Of a stretch of 64,000 nucleotides of DNA, positions 19,367-33,322 are shown in pieces. The notes below the pieces were generated by a model. It had not been told where the DNA came from, did not search any database, and saw only the letters and a list, made by a program, of their open reading frames with translations. Each line of letters opens with the position of its first letter. Within the stretch, counting starts at the first letter, position 1. Source of the stretch: Paracoccaceae bacterium (GTDB lineage Bacteria > Pseudomonadota > Alphaproteobacteria > Rhodobacterales > Rhodobacteraceae); NCBI GenBank assembly GCA_020832445.1, contig JAFIEO010000088.1:1-64000 (forward strand). Reading direction: 5' to 3'. The translations under genes and the position numbers were made by a program.

Positions 19367-19387
19367 CTTGCATTTAAACTTTGCAAA
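19367..19387 (-). promoter_or_regulatory. PccR-box candidate upstream of pccR
   Basis: A perfect TTTGCAAA palindrome at 19380-19387 with a degenerate half CTTGCATT five bases away, 26-46 bases upstream of the pccR start. I recall the PccR motif as TTTGCAAA-N4-TTTGCAAA, so the spacing here is one base longer and one half is weak. Confidence 0.6.
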
Positions 19388-20651: not shown

Positions 20652-20756
20652 TTTGCATTTGAACTGTTACACATGTGAAAAGAAGGCGCAATGTTGATTG
20701 CGAACAAGCGCCGCACTTTGCAAATTAGCCTGAATACTTGTAGACTGGTTTGCAAA
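20652..20756 (+). promoter_or_regulatory. PccR-box cluster upstream of pccB
   Basis: Two perfect TTTGCAAA palindromes at 20717-20724 and 20749-20756, 32 bases start to start (about three helical turns), plus TTTGCATT at 20652-20659 close to the divergent MFS gene. The right-hand copy also fits the N4 spacing with a degenerate left half (CTTGTAGA-CTGG-TTTGCAAA). Confidence 0.65.
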
Positions 20757-20848: not shown

Positions 20849-22381
20849 ATGAAAGATATTCTTCAACAGTTGGAAAGCAACCGCGACGTCGCGCGTCTGG
20901 GTGGGGGGCAGCGCCGGATTGATGCGCAGCATGCAAAGGGCAAGCTGACCGCGCGCGAGCGCATCGAGCTGCTGCTGGATGAAGACAGCTTTGAAGAATT
21001 CGATATGTTCGTGGCCCATCGTTGCGTAGATTTCGGCATGCAGGATGACCGCCCCGCAGGCGATGGCGTTGTCACAGGATGGGGCACAATCAACGGGCGT
21101 CAGGTCTATGTGTTCAGTCAGGATTTCACCGTCATGGGCGGGTCCGTCAGCGAAACCCACGCGCAGAAGATCTGCAAGATCATGGATATGGCCATCCAGA
21201 ACGGCGCCCCTGTCATTGGCCTGAACGATTCCGGTGGCGCGCGTATTCAGGAAGGCGTCGCCAGCCTTGCCGCATATGGTGAAGTGTTCCAGCGCAATAT
21301 CATGGCATCAGGTGTGGTGCCGCAGATCAGCGTGATCATGGGCCCATGTGCGGGCGGCGCGGTCTACAGCCCCGCAATGACCGATTTCATTTTCATGGTC
21401 AAAGACACCAGCTACATGTTCGTGACCGGTCCCGATGTCGTCAAGACCGTGACAAATGAAATCGTCACCGCCGAAGAACTGGGCGGTGCCAGCACCCATA
21501 CGCGCAAATCATCGGTTGCCGATGGGGCGTTTGAAAATGATGTGGAGGCCCTGATCGAAGTGCGCCGCCTTGTCGATTTCCTGCCCAAGAACAACCGCGA
21601 AAAGCCGCCTGTGCGCCCCTTCTTCGATGACCCTGCACGGCTGGAGCACAGCCTGGACACCCTGATTCCGGACAATGCAAATACCCCCTATGATATGAAG
21701 GAACTTATCCGCAAAGTCGCGGATGAAGGCGATTTTTTCGAGATACAGGAAGATTTTGCAAAGAATATCCTGACCGGCTTCATCCGTCTGGAAGGGCGCA
21801 GTGTGGGCGTTGTTGCAAACCAGCCCATGGTGCTTGCAGGTTGTCTGGATATTGATTCCAGCCGCAAGGCCGCGCGTTTTGTGCGGTTTTGCGATGCGTT
21901 TGAAATTCCCATCCTGACCTTTGTGGACGTGCCCGGCTTCCTGCCCGGCATAGGGCAGGAATATGGCGGCATCATCAAGCATGGCGCGAAATTGCTGTTT
22001 GCCTATGGCGAGGCAACCGTGCCAAAAGTGACGGTCATCACCCGCAAGGCCTATGGTGGTGCGTATGATGTGATGGCGTCCAAACACCTGCGCGGTGATT
22101 TCAACTATGCATGGCCCACAGCCGAGATTGCGGTGATGGGCGCCAAGGGCGCGGTTGAAATCCTGTACCGGTCCGAACTGGGTGATTCTGACAAAATTGC
22201 CGAACGCACCAAAGATTATGAAACCCGCTTTGCCAATCCCTTCGTTGCCGCGGAAAAAGGGTTCATCGACGAGGTGATCATGCCACATTCAACGCGCAAA
22301 CGGGTGGCGCGGGCCTTTGCATCCCTGCGCAACAAATCCCTGCAAAACCCGTGGAAGAAGCACGACAATATTCCATTATAA
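20849..22381 (+). CDS. pccB: Propionyl-CoA carboxylase beta (carboxyltransferase) subunit
   Basis: A 510-residue carboxyltransferase that moves CO2 from biotin on PccA to propionyl-CoA, giving methylmalonyl-CoA. The acyl-CoA carboxylase domain shows [20 protein letters not shown] and [16 protein letters not shown] in the N-half, and the C-half oxyanion region has [26 protein letters not shown] with [16 protein letters not shown]. The start MKDILQQLE is behind AAGGGGG; the upstream in-frame ATG would cover the operator region. Genes between pccB and pccA encode small secreted or unknown proteins, in the same direction. Confidence 0.97.
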
Positions 22382-27158: not shown

Positions 27159-29294
27159 ATGAGCACGCCAAAGAGCCGTTGGGCCGAAATCGCCGCAAAG
27201 GAATTGAAGAACCGCCCCGTTGAAAGCCTGACCTGGAACACATTGGAAGGGATTCCCGTCCAACCGCTATATACGGCCGAAGATATTTCCGATCTTGACC
27301 ATCTGGGCACAATCCCGGGAGAGGCGCCTTACACCCGTGGGGTGCGCGCCACGATGTATACGGGCCGCGCATGGACCATCCGGCAATATGCCGGGTTTTC
27401 CACCGCAGAGGATTCGAACGCATTTTACCGCAAGGCCCTTGCGGCGGGGCAGCAAGGTGTGTCTGTCGCGTTCGATCTGGCAACCCATCGCGGGTATGAC
27501 AGCGACCATCCGCGTGTGACGGGCGATGTGGGCAAGGCCGGTGTGGCCATCGATTCGGTCGAGGATATGAAAATCCTGTTTGACGGAATCCCGCTGGAAA
27601 AAGTCAGCGTTTCCATGACAATGAACGGCGCAGTCATACCCATTCTGGCCAATTTCATTGTGACAGGCGAAGAACAGGGCGTGGACCGTAAGCTGCTGTC
27701 GGGCACCATTCAGAACGACATTCTGAAGGAATTCATGGTGCGCAACACCTATGTCTATCCGCCCGAACCCAGCATGCGCATCATTGCCGATATTATTGAA
27801 TACACCACCGCCGAAATGCCCAAATTCAACAGCATTTCGATTTCCGGCTATCATATGCAGGAAGCGGGCGCCAATCTGGTGCAGGAACTGGGCTTTACGC
27901 TGGCCGATGGCCGCGAATATGTGCGCGCGGCTATTCATCGTGGCATGGATGTTGACCAGTTTGCGGGGCGATTGTCGTTCTTTTTTGCCATAGGCACGAA
28001 TTTCTTTATGGAAATCGCAAAACTGCGTGCGGCACGGCTGCTGTGGTCGCGCGTGATGGCCGAATTTAACCCCAAAGACCCGAAATCCAGCATGTTGCGC
28101 ACGCATTGCCAGACATCTGGGGTCAGTTTGCAGGAACAAGACCCTTACAACAATGTCATCCGCACCGCCTATGAAGCGATGAGTGCGGTTCTGGGCGGCA
28201 CGCAATCCTTGCACACAAACGCGCTGGACGAAGCGATTGCGCTGCCGACCGAATTCAGCGCCCGCATTGCGCGCAACACACAGCTTGTGCTGCAAGAAGA
28301 AACCGGCGTGACCAAGGTGGTCGATCCGCTGGCGGGCAGTTACTATATTGAAAAGCTGACCCATGATCTGGCCGAGGCTGCCTGGACCCTGATGCAGGAA
28401 GTCGAGGAAATGGGCGGCATGACCAAAGCGGTTGCATCCGGCATGCCAAAACTGCGGATCGAGGAGACGGCAGCGAAGCGGCAGGCGATGATCGACCGCG
28501 GCGAGGAAGTGATCGTGGGCGTGAACAAATACCGCAAGGATTTTGAGGACCCGATTGATATTCTGGACATTGACAATGTGAAGGTGCGCGACAGTCAGAT
28601 TGTGCGCCTGGAAAAGATGCGGGCCACACGCGATCAGGCGGTTTGTGATGCTGCATTGAACGAATTGACCCGCCGCGCAAGCGAGGGGGGGAACCTTCTG
28701 GAAGCTGCCGTGGACGCCGCGCGCGCCCGCGCCTCTGTCGGGGAAATCAGCATGGCAATGGAAAAGATATTTGGCCGCCATCGTGCCGAGGTCAAAACAC
28801 TGGCAGGTGTTTACGGTGCCGCCTATGAGGGGGATCAGGGCTTTGCCGCCATTCAGGCCGATGTCGAGGCCTTCGCCGAGGTTGAGGGGCGCCGCCCGCG
28901 TATGCTAGTCGTCAAGATGGGGCAGGACGGCCATGATCGCGGCGCGAAGGTGATTGCCACGGCCTTCGCCGATATCGGGTTCGATGTCGATGTGGGACCG
29001 CTGTTTCAAACCCCGGCTGAAGCCGCACAGGATGCCATTGACAATGACGTGCATATCATTGGCATTTCCAGTCAGGCAGCAGGGCATAAGACCCTTGCAC
29101 CACAACTGGTGCAGGCACTGAATGACGCGGGCGCGGATGATATTCTTGTCATCTGTGGCGGTGTGATCCCGCAACAGGATTACGAATTTCTGTATAATGC
29201 GGGGGTAAAGGCCATCTTTGGCCCCGGAACCAATATACCAGACGCGGCAAAGAAAATTCTTGATCTGGTGCGCAAGGCGCGCGGCTTGTCATAA
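27159..29294 (+). CDS. mcm: Methylmalonyl-CoA mutase
   Basis: A 711-residue adenosylcobalamin-dependent mutase turning (R)-methylmalonyl-CoA into succinyl-CoA, the last step of propionyl-CoA assimilation. Catalytic barrel at about residues 1-540 ([78 protein letters not shown]). The cobalamin-binding domain at about 580-711 has the ligand His near residue 592 in [11 protein letters not shown], plus [10 protein letters not shown] and VICGGVIP. This is the single-chain homodimer type. The MeaB/ArgK chaperone and epimerase are not in the window. Confidence 0.97.
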
Positions 29295-29316
29295 CGCAGC
29301 AACATCTGAATGAAAT

Positions 29317-29351
29317 TGCAGGGCAGGGGGCCTGGCCCACCATGCCCTGCA
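29317..29351 (+). terminator. Inverted repeat between mcm and the DoxX gene
   Basis: Perfect 9-base arms TGCAGGGCA / TGCCCTGCA enclosing a further GGGCC/GGCCC pair, between two convergent genes, 22 bases after the mcm stop. Probably a bidirectional transcription end, although T-runs are absent. Confidence 0.5.
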
Positions 29352-29363
29352 TGTCGTGTATGG

Positions 29364-29765
29364 TCAGCTTGTGACTGCGCCGCCCCGATCATCAAGACGT
29401 GCGTCCACGGACAGGCGGCCTGCACCAGTGACAGACAGCGCCAGATAACCCCCGGCAAGTGCCAGATTTTTCAGCAATTGTGTCATTTGCATCTGATCTG
29501 CGGGGTCAAAATGATACAGCAACCCCGATACCACGCAAAACGCCGCCAGCGCATAAGCGGCAACCCGTGTCATCACGCCCACGATCAGTGCCGCTCCGGC
29601 AATGATTTCAAACAAGACCGCCGGCCATGCAAGCGCTGCCGGAATGCCGCCGGATGCCATATATTGACCAAAACCCGAAACATCGCCCAGTTTGCCAAGA
29701 CCGGAAACCAGAAATAGCGCGCCCAACAAAATGCGCGCAACAAGTAGAACTGTGGAGTGTGTCAT
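29364..29765 (-). CDS. DoxX family membrane protein
   Basis: A 133-residue protein with four predicted membrane helices. The N-terminal ARILLGALFLVSGLGKLGD and the AWPAVLFEIIAGAALIVGVMTRVAAYALAAF segment are typical of DoxX. Members have been linked to thiosulfate:quinone oxidation, redox balance or membrane complexes, but most are uncharacterised, as here. It is divergent from the kinase-PduL fusion gene across a 249-base region with two inverted repeats. Confidence 0.87.
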   Translation of the reverse strand: MTHSTVLLVARILLGALFLVSGLGKLGDVSGFGQYMASGGIPAALAWPAVLFEIIAGAALIVGVMTRVAAYALAAFCVVSGLLYHFDPADQMQMTQLLKNLALAGGYLALSVTGAGRLSVDARLDDRGGAVTS

Positions 29766-29880
29766 GTGAACCTCTGACGTGAATAAGTTATGAAGCGCAG
29801 ATATAGCGGTTTATGCGATGTGCAGAATTCACTGATACCCCACATGCCATGTGCGAAATTACACAGGCGCGTCCGTCAAT

Positions 29881-29954
29881 CTTGCAAAGATTGCGTTTGA
29901 TCAATGCAACATCACAGGGACAGGTTTAGGGTGTGCAGCAATAGCAAGCTGCAC
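29881..29954 (+). promoter_or_regulatory. Inverted repeats and PccR-like half-site upstream of the kinase-PduL gene
   Basis: Three elements lie in the divergent promoter: CTTGCAAA at 29881-29888 (7 of 8 bases of TTTGCAAA); a dyad at 29891-29909, TTGCGTTTGATCAATGCAA, with outer TTGC/GCAA and inner TT/AA symmetry; and a perfect 7-base inverted repeat GTGCAGC / GCTGCAC at 29933-29954. They end 60 bases before the ATG. Which strand or regulator uses them cannot be told from sequence. Confidence 0.45.
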
Positions 29955-30014
29955 TCTTTGCATGACAGATCGGGCAGGTTGCACGCCATAATGTGAACGA
30001 TAGGACCAATACCC

Positions 30015-31829
30015 ATGCGCATAATAATATTCAATGCAGGCAGTTCATCCCTGAAATTCGGGGTTTTCGATCTGAATGCGGGCGACAGATTGGACAAGGC
30101 GCAGCATGTGTTCAAAGGCAGTTTTGACAGGTTTGGCCCCGATGGCTGCGATTATCAGCATGGCACGCAGCAGCCAGTGGTCGAACGCGCGCCCTATACC
30201 AGCCTTGCTGCCGCCACGCGTGCAGTCCCCGACCTGCTGTCCGCTGCGGGCGTGGGCGCAATAGACGCCGTTGGCCACCGAATTGCGCATGGCGGTGAAA
30301 GTTTTGCTGCGGCCACCGTGCTGAATGACGCAACGCTGGCGCGGATTGACGCGCTGACCCCGCTGGCCCCCTTGCACAACCCCGCCAATCTGGAAGCTGT
30401 GCAGGTGGCGCGGCAGGTCTGGCCCGATCTGGCGCAATGGGCCGTTTTCGACACGGCCTTTCACCTGTCCAACCCGGCCCGCGCCAGCACCTATGCGGTG
30501 CCCAAGGACTGGCGCGACCGCGGGCTGCGCCGCTATGGGTTTCACGGCACATCGCATAAATATGTGGCCCATCGCGCGGCTGAAGAACTTGGGCAACGCT
30601 TGCGCGACCTGCGCCTGATAAGCCTGCATCTGGGCAATGGGGCAAGCGCCTGCGCGATCGCGGGCGGGGTCAGTATTGACAGCTCCATGGGGATGACACC
30701 CATGGAAGGGTTGGTCATGGGCACGCGTTCGGGCGATGTGGACCCCGGCCTGTTCGGGTATGTGCACCGCGAACTGGGGCTTGATATTGCGCAGATCGAA
30801 GATGCGCTGAACCGCCATAGCGGTTTGTTTGGGCTGACCGGATCATCGGATATGCGCGATGTCGAGGCGCGCGCCGCACAGGGCGACGCGGATGCGCAGC
30901 TTGCGATTCATATCTATGCCTACCGCGCGCGCAAGTATATCGGGGCCTATGCGGCGGCCATGGGCGGGCTGGATGCGTTGGTGTTTACCGGCGGCATTGG
31001 CGAAAACTCCCCCTCGATGCGCAGGCGTATCTGTGACGGGTTGGGGTTCATGGGCATCTTGCTGGACCATGACCGGAACATGCAGGTCGATCTGGGTGCA
31101 CGCGCAGCACCGCAAATTCAGGCTTATGGCGCAAGGGTTAATGTGCTGGTCACCGAAACGGCCGAGCAGTTGATGATTGCCCGTGAAGTGGTTGTGGCCG
31201 CCAACCGGCCCAGGGGGCAGGGCGCGCGCATTCCGGTTGCGGTATCGGCGCGGCATGTGCATTTGTGCCGCAAGGCCGTGGATGCGCTGTTCGGGCCGGG
31301 GTATGAGCTGACGCCCGACAAGCCCTTGCGCCAGCAAGGCCATTGGGCGGCAGCGGAACGTGTTGCACTGCATGGCCCGAAAGGCACAATTCGCAATGTG
31401 GCTATCCTTGGCCCGCTGCGCGAGCGCACCCAGATCGAAGTGTCGCGCACTGACAGTTTTGCGCTGGGTCTGGACGCGCCTGTTCGCCAAAGCGGCAAAC
31501 TTGACGGCACGCCCCAGATCCGGCTGTCAGGCCCTGTGGGCGAGATGGACAGCGACGGGCTTATCATTGCATCGCGCCATATCCATATGGCGCCTGAAGA
31601 TGCGGCCGGCATGGGGTTGGCCAATGGTGATATGGTTGATGTCAAGCTGGACGCAACAGGGCGTGACCTGACATTTACCCGCGTGCTTGTGCGTGTGTCT
31701 GACAATGCGTTCACGGAAATGCATATCGACACGGACGAGGCCAACGCCGCCGGAATTTCTGGCGAAGGTGACGGCCAAATTTCAGCCGCCGCCACATTGG
31801 AACCCGCATCGAGCAGCACCCAGGATTGA
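30015..31829 (+). CDS. Acetate/propionate kinase fused to PduL-type phosphotransacylase
   Basis: A 604-residue fusion. Residues 1 to about 395 are a complete acetate/propionate kinase: FNAGSSSLKFGVF, GHRIAHGG, RRYGFHGTSHKYV, SLHLGNGASACAI, GTRSGDVDPG and FTGGIGENSP. Residues from about 405 to 590 are a PduL phosphate acyltransferase with both half-barrels and the metal-binding histidines in VAVSARHVHLC and IIASRHIHMAPEDA. Together they would turn acyl-CoA plus Pi into acyl phosphate and then acid plus ATP, or the reverse (activation). The linker is short (RPRGQGAR). The frame is unbroken, so this is a true fusion. Position beside pcc/mcm suggests propionate as one substrate; acetate is equally possible. 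Confidence 0.93.
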   Translation: MRIIIFNAGSSSLKFGVFDLNAGDRLDKAQHVFKGSFDRFGPDGCDYQHGTQQPVVERAPYTSLAAATRAVPDLLSAAGVGAIDAVGHRIAHGGESFAAATVLNDATLARIDALTPLAPLHNPANLEAVQVARQVWPDLAQWAVFDTAFHLSNPARASTYAVPKDWRDRGLRRYGFHGTSHKYVAHRAAEELGQRLRDLRLISLHLGNGASACAIAGGVSIDSSMGMTPMEGLVMGTRSGDVDPGLFGYVHRELGLDIAQIEDALNRHSGLFGLTGSSDMRDVEARAAQGDADAQLAIHIYAYRARKYIGAYAAAMGGLDALVFTGGIGENSPSMRRRICDGLGFMGILLDHDRNMQVDLGARAAPQIQAYGARVNVLVTETAEQLMIAREVVVAANRPRGQGARIPVAVSARHVHLCRKAVDALFGPGYELTPDKPLRQQGHWAAAERVALHGPKGTIRNVAILGPLRERTQIEVSRTDSFALGLDAPVRQSGKLDGTPQIRLSGPVGEMDSDGLIIASRHIHMAPEDAAGMGLANGDMVDVKLDATGRDLTFTRVLVRVSDNAFTEMHIDTDEANAAGISGEGDGQISAAATLEPASSSTQD

Positions 31830-31885
31830 AGCAACTTCCGAAAACGTTGATCGGTTTTGCGGTTCGAGATTACGCAATCCCTTCT

Positions 31886-31929
31886 CTACAGTGTTTCCAA
31901 CGGTTCAACGGAAAGCCGAAACGCTGTAG
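31886..31929 (+). repeat. Long hairpin, repeat-like
   Basis: The 12-base arms CTACAGTGTTTC / GAAACGCTGTAG pair fully with one G-U and enclose 20 bases with an inner CGG/CCG pairing. It lies 57 bases after the kinase-PduL stop and has the look of an alphaproteobacterial palindromic repeat unit; no second copy is present in this window. It could also act as a transcript end. Confidence 0.5.
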
Positions 31930-31988
31930 GATGTCAGCGGTGGCCATCCGTTCCGGCAGCATCTGCACTGGCGCGGGCTGTGTCGCAT

Positions 31989-32094
31989 TAGAGCATATCA
32001 CGTTCATTCGCATTCACGAGATATGCCCTGACTTATTGATTTCGCATGTTCGAGAAGCTCAAAACCGGTACCCACTTTTGGGCAACATGCTCTA
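31989..32094. repeat. RIME-like 106-base interspersed element, copy A
   Basis: Bounded by TAGAGCAT and its inverse ATGCTCTA. It is about 90 percent identical (about 10 differences in 106) to the element at 39926-40031. The inside contains CATATCACGTTCATTCGCAT and an inverted pair built on GCTCAAA. It resembles the palindromic mosaic (RIME) elements common in alphaproteobacterial genomes. Confidence 0.85.
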
Positions 32095-32188
32095 TGCCCG
32101 TACGCAGCCGCCCTTTTTCTTTGGGTGTGTTTTGCCGAACGAATGTCTGTCCGACATGTCACATCCGGTCCGGTTGCAGGGGGTGGGG

Positions 32189-33322
32189 TTAAACGTCCTC
32201 CTCCTCAAGGGATTGAAGCGTGATGGTGCCTGCGTCAATCATGCCGCGGACGGACCCCATCACCCGTGCCATGATTTCATCTTTTTGTTTGGCCGTCGGA
32301 ACGGGTAGGGCGGTTGCATCCTCGCGCATGGTATCGGCAATGCGTTTGGACATGTTGGACAACAGAAATTCCAGTGTTGGCTGATCTTCCGGCGTGTTTG
32401 CCGCGATGATGAACATCATGTCATCAGATGGCACTTCACGCATCAGTGCCGGCACATCGCGCGGTGTAATTCGCGCCGGAATATCCTGAAACGTGAAGAT
32501 GGACTTGCGCACACCGGTCGCAAACCCCTGATCCAGATTGTCCAGCCCGGCAAGAAGCCTGTCGCGCAACGCGGTCGGGGAGGAATTGAGTATTTCACCG
32601 ACGCGCTTGGTCGATGGTTTGGCAAATGCGCGCAAGGGTTTGTCGGTGACCTGCTGTGCCAATGCGACGCCAATGCGGGCCACGGTATCGGGGGCGATAT
32701 CTTCGGTCTTTGCGACAGATATGGCCAATGCCTGTGCCAGATCAGGGGCCATCTGGGACAACAATCCCGCTGCCTTGTCGATGCTGAGTTTCGAAAGCAC
32801 GACCGCGCCCACGACGGTGCTTTCAGCCTCCAGCACAGGTAACAGGTCAGTGTCTGGTGCTGCTTCAAGATCGGCCCACGGGTCACGCCGGTTCGCACCG
32901 CGCGCCAGCATCCTTAGCTGCTGGGTGGCCATTGCATCCAGCCGCCCGTCCAGCAACGACAGCGCGCCATCCAGCCCGTCCGGAAAGGAAAGCCCGACCT
33001 GTTCCAGCATATCCACATATTCGGCCACAACGGCATTCATTGTGGTGCGATCAATCAGCCGCATTTCCCCCATTGTGCGGGTCAGGTTTTCCTGCATGCG
33101 CGCAGACAAGGCGGAAAGCTGCAAGTCGACCCCTTCGGCAACCAAAACCCGCACAATGATTGCAGCTTTTTGTATGCCGCTAAGATGGTCGGTTCCGGTG
33201 GGGGCCGCGCGATGCGCATCATCCATGCCCGAACCCGGAAAATTCATACTATTTGCCATTGTATTGAAGGGCATCATCGCGGCATCGCTCATTTCGCCAA
33301 ACCGTTTGCAGACATGGTCCAT
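32189..33322 (-). CDS. FliG-like flagellar motor switch domain protein
   Basis: A 377-residue protein with FliG-like organisation: GIQKAAIIVRVLVAEGVDLQLSAL near the N-terminus, a middle domain with PDTDLLPVLEAESTVVGAVVLSKLSIDKAAGLLSQM (the FliG middle motif region), and a C-terminal charged helix region with DIPALMREVPSDDMMFIIAANTPEDQPTLEFLLSNMSKRIADTMREDA-type spacing. FliG couples the rotor to MotA and to FliM. No flagellar gene is nearby. The exact start is uncertain: several ATGs occur in the first 32 codons and none has a strong ribosome site. It could be the sole rotor FliG or a diverged paralogue. Confidence 0.75.
   Translation of the reverse strand: MDHVCKRFGEMSDAAMMPFNTMANSMNFPGSGMDDAHRAAPTGTDHLSGIQKAAIIVRVLVAEGVDLQLSALSARMQENLTRTMGEMRLIDRTTMNAVVAEYVDMLEQVGLSFPDGLDGALSLLDGRLDAMATQQLRMLARGANRRDPWADLEAAPDTDLLPVLEAESTVVGAVVLSKLSIDKAAGLLSQMAPDLAQALAISVAKTEDIAPDTVARIGVALAQQVTDKPLRAFAKPSTKRVGEILNSSPTALRDRLLAGLDNLDQGFATGVRKSIFTFQDIPARITPRDVPALMREVPSDDMMFIIAANTPEDQPTLEFLLSNMSKRIADTMREDATALPVPTAKQKDEIMARVMGSVRGMIDAGTITLQSLEEEDV

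Follow-up and report, generated by a model that had tools for sequence, protein, structure and literature searches.

A conserved, probably bifunctional fusion of acetate kinase and PduL phosphotransacylase in a Paracoccaceae genome

A single gene of the Paracoccaceae bacterium studied here (assembly GCA_020832445.1) joins a whole acetate/propionate kinase (AckA) to a whole PduL phosphotransacylase, and encodes a real, conserved, probably bifunctional AckA-PduL enzyme of a known and apparently uncharacterised architecture. What can be read from the sequence is the fusion itself, its conservation, the intact catalytic residues and the single copy, and we infer the in vivo direction and the preferred acid. 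It is very likely that this one protein carries the complete, reversible phosphotransacylase-acetate kinase route; its acids would be acetate and probably propionate, and the reactions are assigned from family knowledge. The zinc-dependent PduL half would interconvert acyl-CoA plus phosphate with acyl phosphate plus CoA, and the AckA half acyl phosphate plus ADP with carboxylate plus ATP, as expected of the two families.

The window, i.e., the whole stretch of DNA that was analyzed, comprises positions 1 to 64,000 (64,000 nucleotides, forward strand) of contig JAFIEO010000088.1. The features considered in it are:

29766–30014, no strand: intergenic region between the divergent doxX (− strand) and fusion (+ strand) genes, from the gene layout; presumed fusion promoter
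30015–31829, + strand: ackA-pduL fusion gene, 604 amino acids in one frame, with Pfam and NCBIfam matches to both domains
30021–31184, + strand: acetate/propionate kinase (AckA) domain, residues 3–390, PF00871
31194–31226, + strand: linker stretch, residues 394–404 (11 residues), borders set by us
31233–31757, + strand: PduL (PTAC) phosphotransacylase domain, residues 407–581, PF06130, 5CUO alignment
32189–33322, − strand: FliG-like protein with N, M and C domains, between the fusion gene and purB

The fusion gene starts with ATG and runs without interruption through 604 codons to its stop, at the coordinates and with the description given by the first-pass annotation, which had also called both domains complete. 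Both are indeed full-length and above curated cut-offs: Pfam placed Acetate_kinase (PF00871) at residues 3–390 with 415 bits (profile positions 2–392 of 392) and PTAC (PF06130) at residues 407–581 with 230.6 bits against a cut-off of 25 (profile positions 1–175 of 176), while the NCBIfam models TIGR00016 (ackA) and NF011652 (phosphate propanoyltransferase) scored 400.9 bits (curated cut-off 293.4) and 235.6 bits (cut-off 209). The best solved relative of the AckA half was 2IIR (E 1.5e−101), with 1TUU also matched, and that of the PduL half was PDB 5CUO (E 5.9e−52). The Pfam borders leave residues 391–406 between the domains, and over the columns of residues 394–404 the 74 aligned fusions hold 11–30 residues (median 13; 11 in the window protein). 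Sixteen residues separate the end of AckA from the PduL domain, which therefore has no free N-terminus, and an encapsulation peptide is absent as judged by position only. A search of the whole genome with the fusion protein returned the window's own locus as its single match, and GC by codon position was similar in both halves of the gene. The promoter was not located, a scan of 29250–32300 for sigma-70-type consensus sites giving 0 sites with 1.4 expected.

Active-site residues of the PduL half were read off an alignment to 5CUO with the RHxH motif as its anchor, and their roles (zinc ligands, phosphate contacts R103 and S127, CoA contact R97) follow PMC4784909. The histidine metal motifs pointed out earlier align with known zinc ligands, as H48, H50, E109, H157, H159 and H204 correspond to H414, H416, E475, H522, H524 and H570 of the window protein; likewise, R103, S127, R194, Q107 and Q74 correspond to R469, S493, R560, Q473 and Q440. 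Conservation was assessed on 74 aligned fusions, namely the window protein and 73 of the 79 intact loci from the best 80 of at least 574 relatives (loci L006, L008, L010, L027, L041, and L075 stand outside this alignment). In all 74, seven PduL residues (the six zinc ligands and the phosphate contact R469) and the AckA residues R89, D146, H177, R238, and E384 were invariant. Two positions differ from rPduL in the window protein: Q77 is replaced by H443 (H in 15 of the 74) and the CoA contact R97 by A463 (A in 32 of the 74). The kinase half carries NAGSSSLK, HRIAHGG, FDTAFH, GFHGTSH, HLGNG, GTRSGD, GGIGEN, and TAEQL, which we take to be kinase motifs. When matched by motif, the catalytic arginines R91 and R241 and the metal-binding glutamate E384 of the Methanosarcina thermophila AckA fall on R89, R238, and E384 here, and R91, R241, and E384/E385 are described as essential in two other AckAs (PMC6461089). 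Neither domain looks inactive and a dead half seems very unlikely; as the active-site residues of both halves are preserved, the alignments support the proposal that enzymes of consecutive steps have been fused. An AlphaFold2 prediction based on the 74-fusion alignment (mean pLDDT 89.0, pTM 0.77) placed most of both domains above 85, fell below 50 in the loop 229–240, which holds R238, and in the tail 592–604, and predicted no helix or strand for residues 397–404 between the domains. The prediction is in keeping with a pair of folded domains and does not define their relative orientation.

The first-pass annotation had named a sequencing error joining two genes as one case that would undo its reading. 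In a scan of genome contigs, at least 574 relatives were confirmed and the best 80, ranked by likeness to the fused query, were taken (79 contigs, with L051 and L064 sharing one); counts on them refer to these 80 and are no estimate of how common fused AckAs are in nature. Judging by record titles, Rhodobacteraceae, Mesorhizobium, and Rhizobium are among them, as are a MAG of the Burkholderiaceae, several Gammaproteobacteria, Bacteroidota, and Myxococcota. The matched range, spanning both domains, was free of stops in 79 of these best 80 loci (starting inside AckA in L027, L041, and L075), and the frame was broken in L062 alone. Within the genus, a match was present in 35 of 37 genomes and the fusion in 34 of 37. 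Thirty-two matches ran nearly end to end; the one in G154 covered residues 85–599 and the one in G175 residues 285–593, the latter starting at base 1 of its contig, with a second short match elsewhere covering residues 1–80. Among the 24 genus genomes with ≥ 90% completeness and ≤ 5% contamination, 23 carried the fusion; the exception, G183, had only an AckA-like match with 40% identity and an internal stop. Because the frame is kept in 79 of the best 80 loci, the fusion is neither a chance event nor an assembly error, and the two counts (79 of 80, and 34 of 37 genus genomes) together exclude the suspected joining of two genes.

An internal TGA considered for G179, G153, and G178 proved to be the gene end, the frames being open for 595–599 residues through both domains. 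In some GC-rich loci, the simple ORF caller overlooked the fused gene or gave it a wrong label (it was lacking in 9 of 81 loci in one comparison, and L123 and L124 were affected in another), as it did with the stand-alone PduLs L088 and L133; the fusion counts are independent of its labels. One Myxococcales MAG carries two ackA-pduL fusion genes (L051 and L064) on contig JAEUJZ010000127.1, sisters in both of the domain trees described below.

PduL domains are rare outside the genus. Four of 149 family genomes held one, fused in the window's genome, G037, and G040 and alone in the stretch read in G030, and the pathway is dispensable in the family because only these 4 of 149 hold the domain. The sampling at phylum level took in the window's own phylum and that of L049, with the phylum of L067 left out: PduL was present in 7 of 398 genomes in the former (4 fused, 3 without AckA in loci of 3.5 kb) and in 5 of 296 in the latter (2 fused, including the centre genome, and 3 with no AckA in the vicinity). 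Among 72,556 plasmid records, 409 gave some match and 4 covered ≥ 80% of the query. The fusion is in one piece in Paracoccus Arc7-R13 and Polaromonas pPNAP02, and its frame is broken within PduL in Sinorhizobium pSmeRU11d and S. medicae pSymA. These two Sinorhizobium copies (L139, 8001–9756; L142, 3001–4756) are broken at the same place and have an intact AckA part.

Separate trees were built for the AckA part (90 rows: 80 fused, picked by likeness to a fused query, and 10 stand-alone) and for the PduL part (87 rows: 80 fused, picked likewise, and 7 stand-alone), both with a midpoint root and several long branches. The same 33 fused sequences were set apart in the two trees (support 99/95 for AckA and 98/88 for PduL); they are mostly Bacteroidota and Myxococcota-like, with three named Gammaproteobacteria or Bdellovibrionales. 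Since the same deep split recurs in both domain trees, one old fusion before it, followed by joint inheritance of the halves and patchy lateral spread, would fit best. Taken as a clade, the AckA-PduL fusions carry both domains in one frame and have inherited them together. The stand-alone PduL L088 and the stand-alone plasmid AckA L143 nest inside fused clades, and their positions read as probable losses of one domain.

The genome, rated 99.99% complete, has a single match each to AckA and PduL, and its matches to the PTA_PTB profile revealed no free-standing Pta. Its two strong PTA_PTB matches are frames of 805 and 752 residues that fit NADP-malic enzyme best in NCBIfam (990.8 and 737.7 bits, below the cut-off of 1178) and were rejected as Pta; a weak third match is presumably PlsX, judging from its sequence and a FabH-like neighbour. 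Because no other AckA or PduL match and no free-standing Pta were found, the fusion protein is probably the whole Ack-Pta pathway of this genome, beside AMP-forming ligases. The latter are AcsA (1025 bits, over its cut-off) and a PrpE-like ligase, which scored 744.5 bits with one propionate-CoA ligase model (cut-off 955) and 715.6 bits with another (cut-off 827.4), in both cases below the cut-off. No ready source of acyl phosphate was found in the genome, since the phosphoketolase profile XFP_N gave 0 matches and none of the 3 matches to the Xsc model passed its cut-off; the best of these three passes as acetolactate synthase. As probably the only acetate kinase and only free phosphotransacylase of the bacterium, the enzyme would most likely serve acetate overflow with ATP formation and the activation of acetate at high concentration, alongside AcsA and the PrpE-like ligase.

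Ack-Pta is a textbook route, in which separate enzymes set free acetyl phosphate, a metabolite that acts as a signal and acetylates proteins. A fused enzyme may pass the acyl phosphate directly between its sites, and such putative channelling would guard it against hydrolysis, use in protein acetylation, and other kinases. We regard this as possible, though on the doubtful side. Two consecutive steps on one chain with a short linker (11–30 residues among the 74 fusions), as well as the retention of one apparently old fusion across distant groups, point towards it, and channelling has been proposed in print for Ack-fused PduLs (PMC4784909). However, the predicted model, with its pTM of 0.77 and a linker without helix or strand, lends it no structural support, the stand-alone L088 and L143 inside fused clades indicate that the link is not essential everywhere, and a fixed stoichiometry of the two activities would explain the fusion equally well.

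The gene order around the fusion bears on another reading, in which the enzyme takes up propionate and is tied to a neighbouring methylmalonyl-CoA pathway. Upstream lie, in this order, a ScfR-family regulator, an MFS-like gene, pccB, pccA, mcm, and, on the opposite strand, doxX, followed by the fusion; the FliG-like gene and purB lie downstream (MFS-like gene, pccA, and purB were named by eye). The regulator, pccB, pccA, and mcm lie 0.7–12 kb upstream of the fusion, and both enzyme families, PduL and AckA, can act on propionyl compounds. In the genus, 12 other loci have a readable upstream side (L119–L129 and L001; L027 lacks this side and stands outside the comparison). The upstream neighbour is mcm in 3 of them (G181, G149, and L001, with pccA and pccB too in G181 and G149, L001 being too short to show them), pgm in 6, and of the recG/trmFO/gluQ type without a called pgm in 3. 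Against a dedicated propionate enzyme, then, mcm is not the upstream neighbour in the 9 other readable genus loci and is not called at the fused loci L130 and L131 from other genera of the family, doxX on the other strand separates it from the fusion, and AcsA and the PrpE-like ligase offer other activation routes. As the FliG-like and/or purB flank is common to several genus members, the pcc/mcm block probably came to adjoin the fusion within a sub-clade.

The exact box TTTGCAAA, which we take to be the PccR box, is absent from 29766–30014 in front of the fusion and present at 19380 (start of the regulator) and at 20717 and 20749 (before pccB), which likewise counts, weakly, against the propionate reading, as far as the motif holds; the box also occurs at 21755 and 37890. 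These 5 matches compare with 2.46 expected, as many being found in 11 of 100 shuffles, a weak enrichment, and a pair of boxes set 4 bases apart matched at 2 places, each with 3 mismatches, against 0.56 expected, which is weak either way. The boxes at 19380, 20717, and 20749 by the ScfR-family regulator and pccB are as expected of PccR-type control, given this motif; the two on the pccB side recur in L119, and L120 ends inside pccB. The string TTTGC was not found in the available part of PMC10370305. Overall, we hold the propionate reading to be unlikely. The earlier suggestion that the fusion feeds propionate into the adjacent pcc/mcm pathway is weak, with mcm upstream in just 3 of the 12 other genus loci, doxX in between, and other ligases at hand, and the link is unsupported beyond gene order in a sub-clade.

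Loci of relatives suggest a further context. In 7 of the best 80 loci (of at least 574), a P-type cation ATPase gene lies directly ahead of the fusion in the same orientation, and its end overlaps the fusion start:

L018, 5233–8004: P-type cation ATPase gene
L029, 1748–4375: P-type cation ATPase gene
L032, 5377–8004: P-type cation ATPase gene
L036, 5281–8001: P-type cation ATPase gene
L038, 369–2951: P-type cation ATPase gene
L039, 5236–8004: P-type cation ATPase gene
L062, 5290–8004: P-type cation ATPase gene

The ATPase stop and the fusion start overlap by 4 bases in six of these loci and by 1 base in L036; independent cases number fewer than seven, as L029 and L032 are near-copies and the fusion in L062 is frame-broken. 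Four of the seven ATPases were scanned, with TIGR01522 as the best NCBIfam model, below its cut-off. Enough upstream sequence was available for 63 of the best 80 loci (of at least 574), 10 of which have a same-strand frame of ≥ 250 codons ending ≤ 30 bases from the fusion start, and 7 of these 10 frames are P-type ATPases. The overlap suggests that the translation of an ion pump may be coupled to that of an ATP-forming enzyme. A phosphoketolase gene, plausible as a source of acetyl phosphate, is present in 5 of the best 80 loci of at least 574 (L022, L025, L026, L037, and L039; ≤ 8 kb on either side). The genus relatives G182, G184, and G153 have a second, stand-alone AckA (40–42% identical; loci L170, L171, and L172) next to a frame of 591–613 aa, which resembles Xsc at the beginning of its sequence and perhaps belongs to a taurine/sulfoacetaldehyde route.

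On plasmids, Polaromonas pPNAP02 has the order fabI, fusion, DUF3141; on Sphingobium pSH1 an alpha/beta hydrolase gene precedes one gene for an enoyl-CoA hydratase/phosphate acetyltransferase and another for AckA, a pair found on Sphingomonas pNXO2 as well, and Acidovorax p1-T1 and Burkholderia pMSMB0266 have other arrangements. From these gene orders, the fusion may act in place of a Pta and AckA pair. Taken together, the relatives' loci fit acyl-phosphate chemistry. One could go further and view the fusions as self-contained, mobile ATP-generating modules, coupled in translation to a P-type cation ATPase in some proteobacteria, in which acyl-CoA, or acyl phosphate that phosphoketolase supplies at some loci, would regenerate ATP beside an ATP-driven ion pump and the covalent link would keep free acetyl phosphate low, the window copy being a chromosomal, pump-free relative; we consider this very unlikely. 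Least credible of all is that one half is catalytically dead or that the fusion is decaying, as the broken copies (the PduL part of the two Sinorhizobium plasmid copies, and L062) might suggest, but the window's copy keeps every catalytic and metal-binding residue that was checked, none of these varies among the 74 aligned fusions, and the like codon-position GC of both halves argues against decay.

Against our preferred reading, a bifunctional enzyme, weigh the two PduL positions that differ from rPduL, the low pLDDT of the loop with R238, the scarcity of PduL in the family, the lack of the fusion in G183, and the absence of a ready acyl-phosphate source among the genome's matches. Its architecture has a precedent in print. 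Erbilgin et al. (2016; PMC4784909) described multidomain proteins that carry the PduL signature and for the most part bear an Ack annotation, and suggested channelling, so that both the architecture and the idea are already published and the surprise is limited. The earlier statement that no characterized enzyme is known with this domain order stands as far as the openly licensed literature goes, in which no characterization of an AckA-PduL fusion was found, although Ack-fused PduLs themselves have been in print since 2016. A one-chain version of Ack-Pta that uses the unrelated zinc enzyme PduL and occurs in several phyla would be a clean system for testing channelling, and it suggests a role for PduL outside microcompartments.

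In comparison with known systems, the window protein resembles the Ack-fused PduLs of PMC4784909 in its PduL signature, multidomain build, and Ack annotation, those proteins being said to lack encapsulation peptides; the section on them gives no domain order, member list, or assay, and we infer that they are the same as the clade described here. With the microcompartment PduL (5CUO/5CUP; rPduL, PMC4784909), it shares PF06130, the zinc ligands, and the conserved R103 and S127, but it is fused to AckA and has H443 in place of Q77 and A463 in place of R97. Stand-alone acetate/propionate kinases (TIGR00016; 2IIR, 1TUU) have the same whole kinase domain and motifs, whereas the window protein adds a C-terminal PduL domain. 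The plasmid-borne enoyl-CoA hydratase/Pta and AckA pair of Sphingobium and Sphingomonas would catalyze the same pair of reactions, and in Sphingobium it adjoins an alpha/beta hydrolase gene, as DUF3141 adjoins the Polaromonas plasmid fusion; unlike the fusion, it consists of two genes and has an unrelated Pta in place of PduL.
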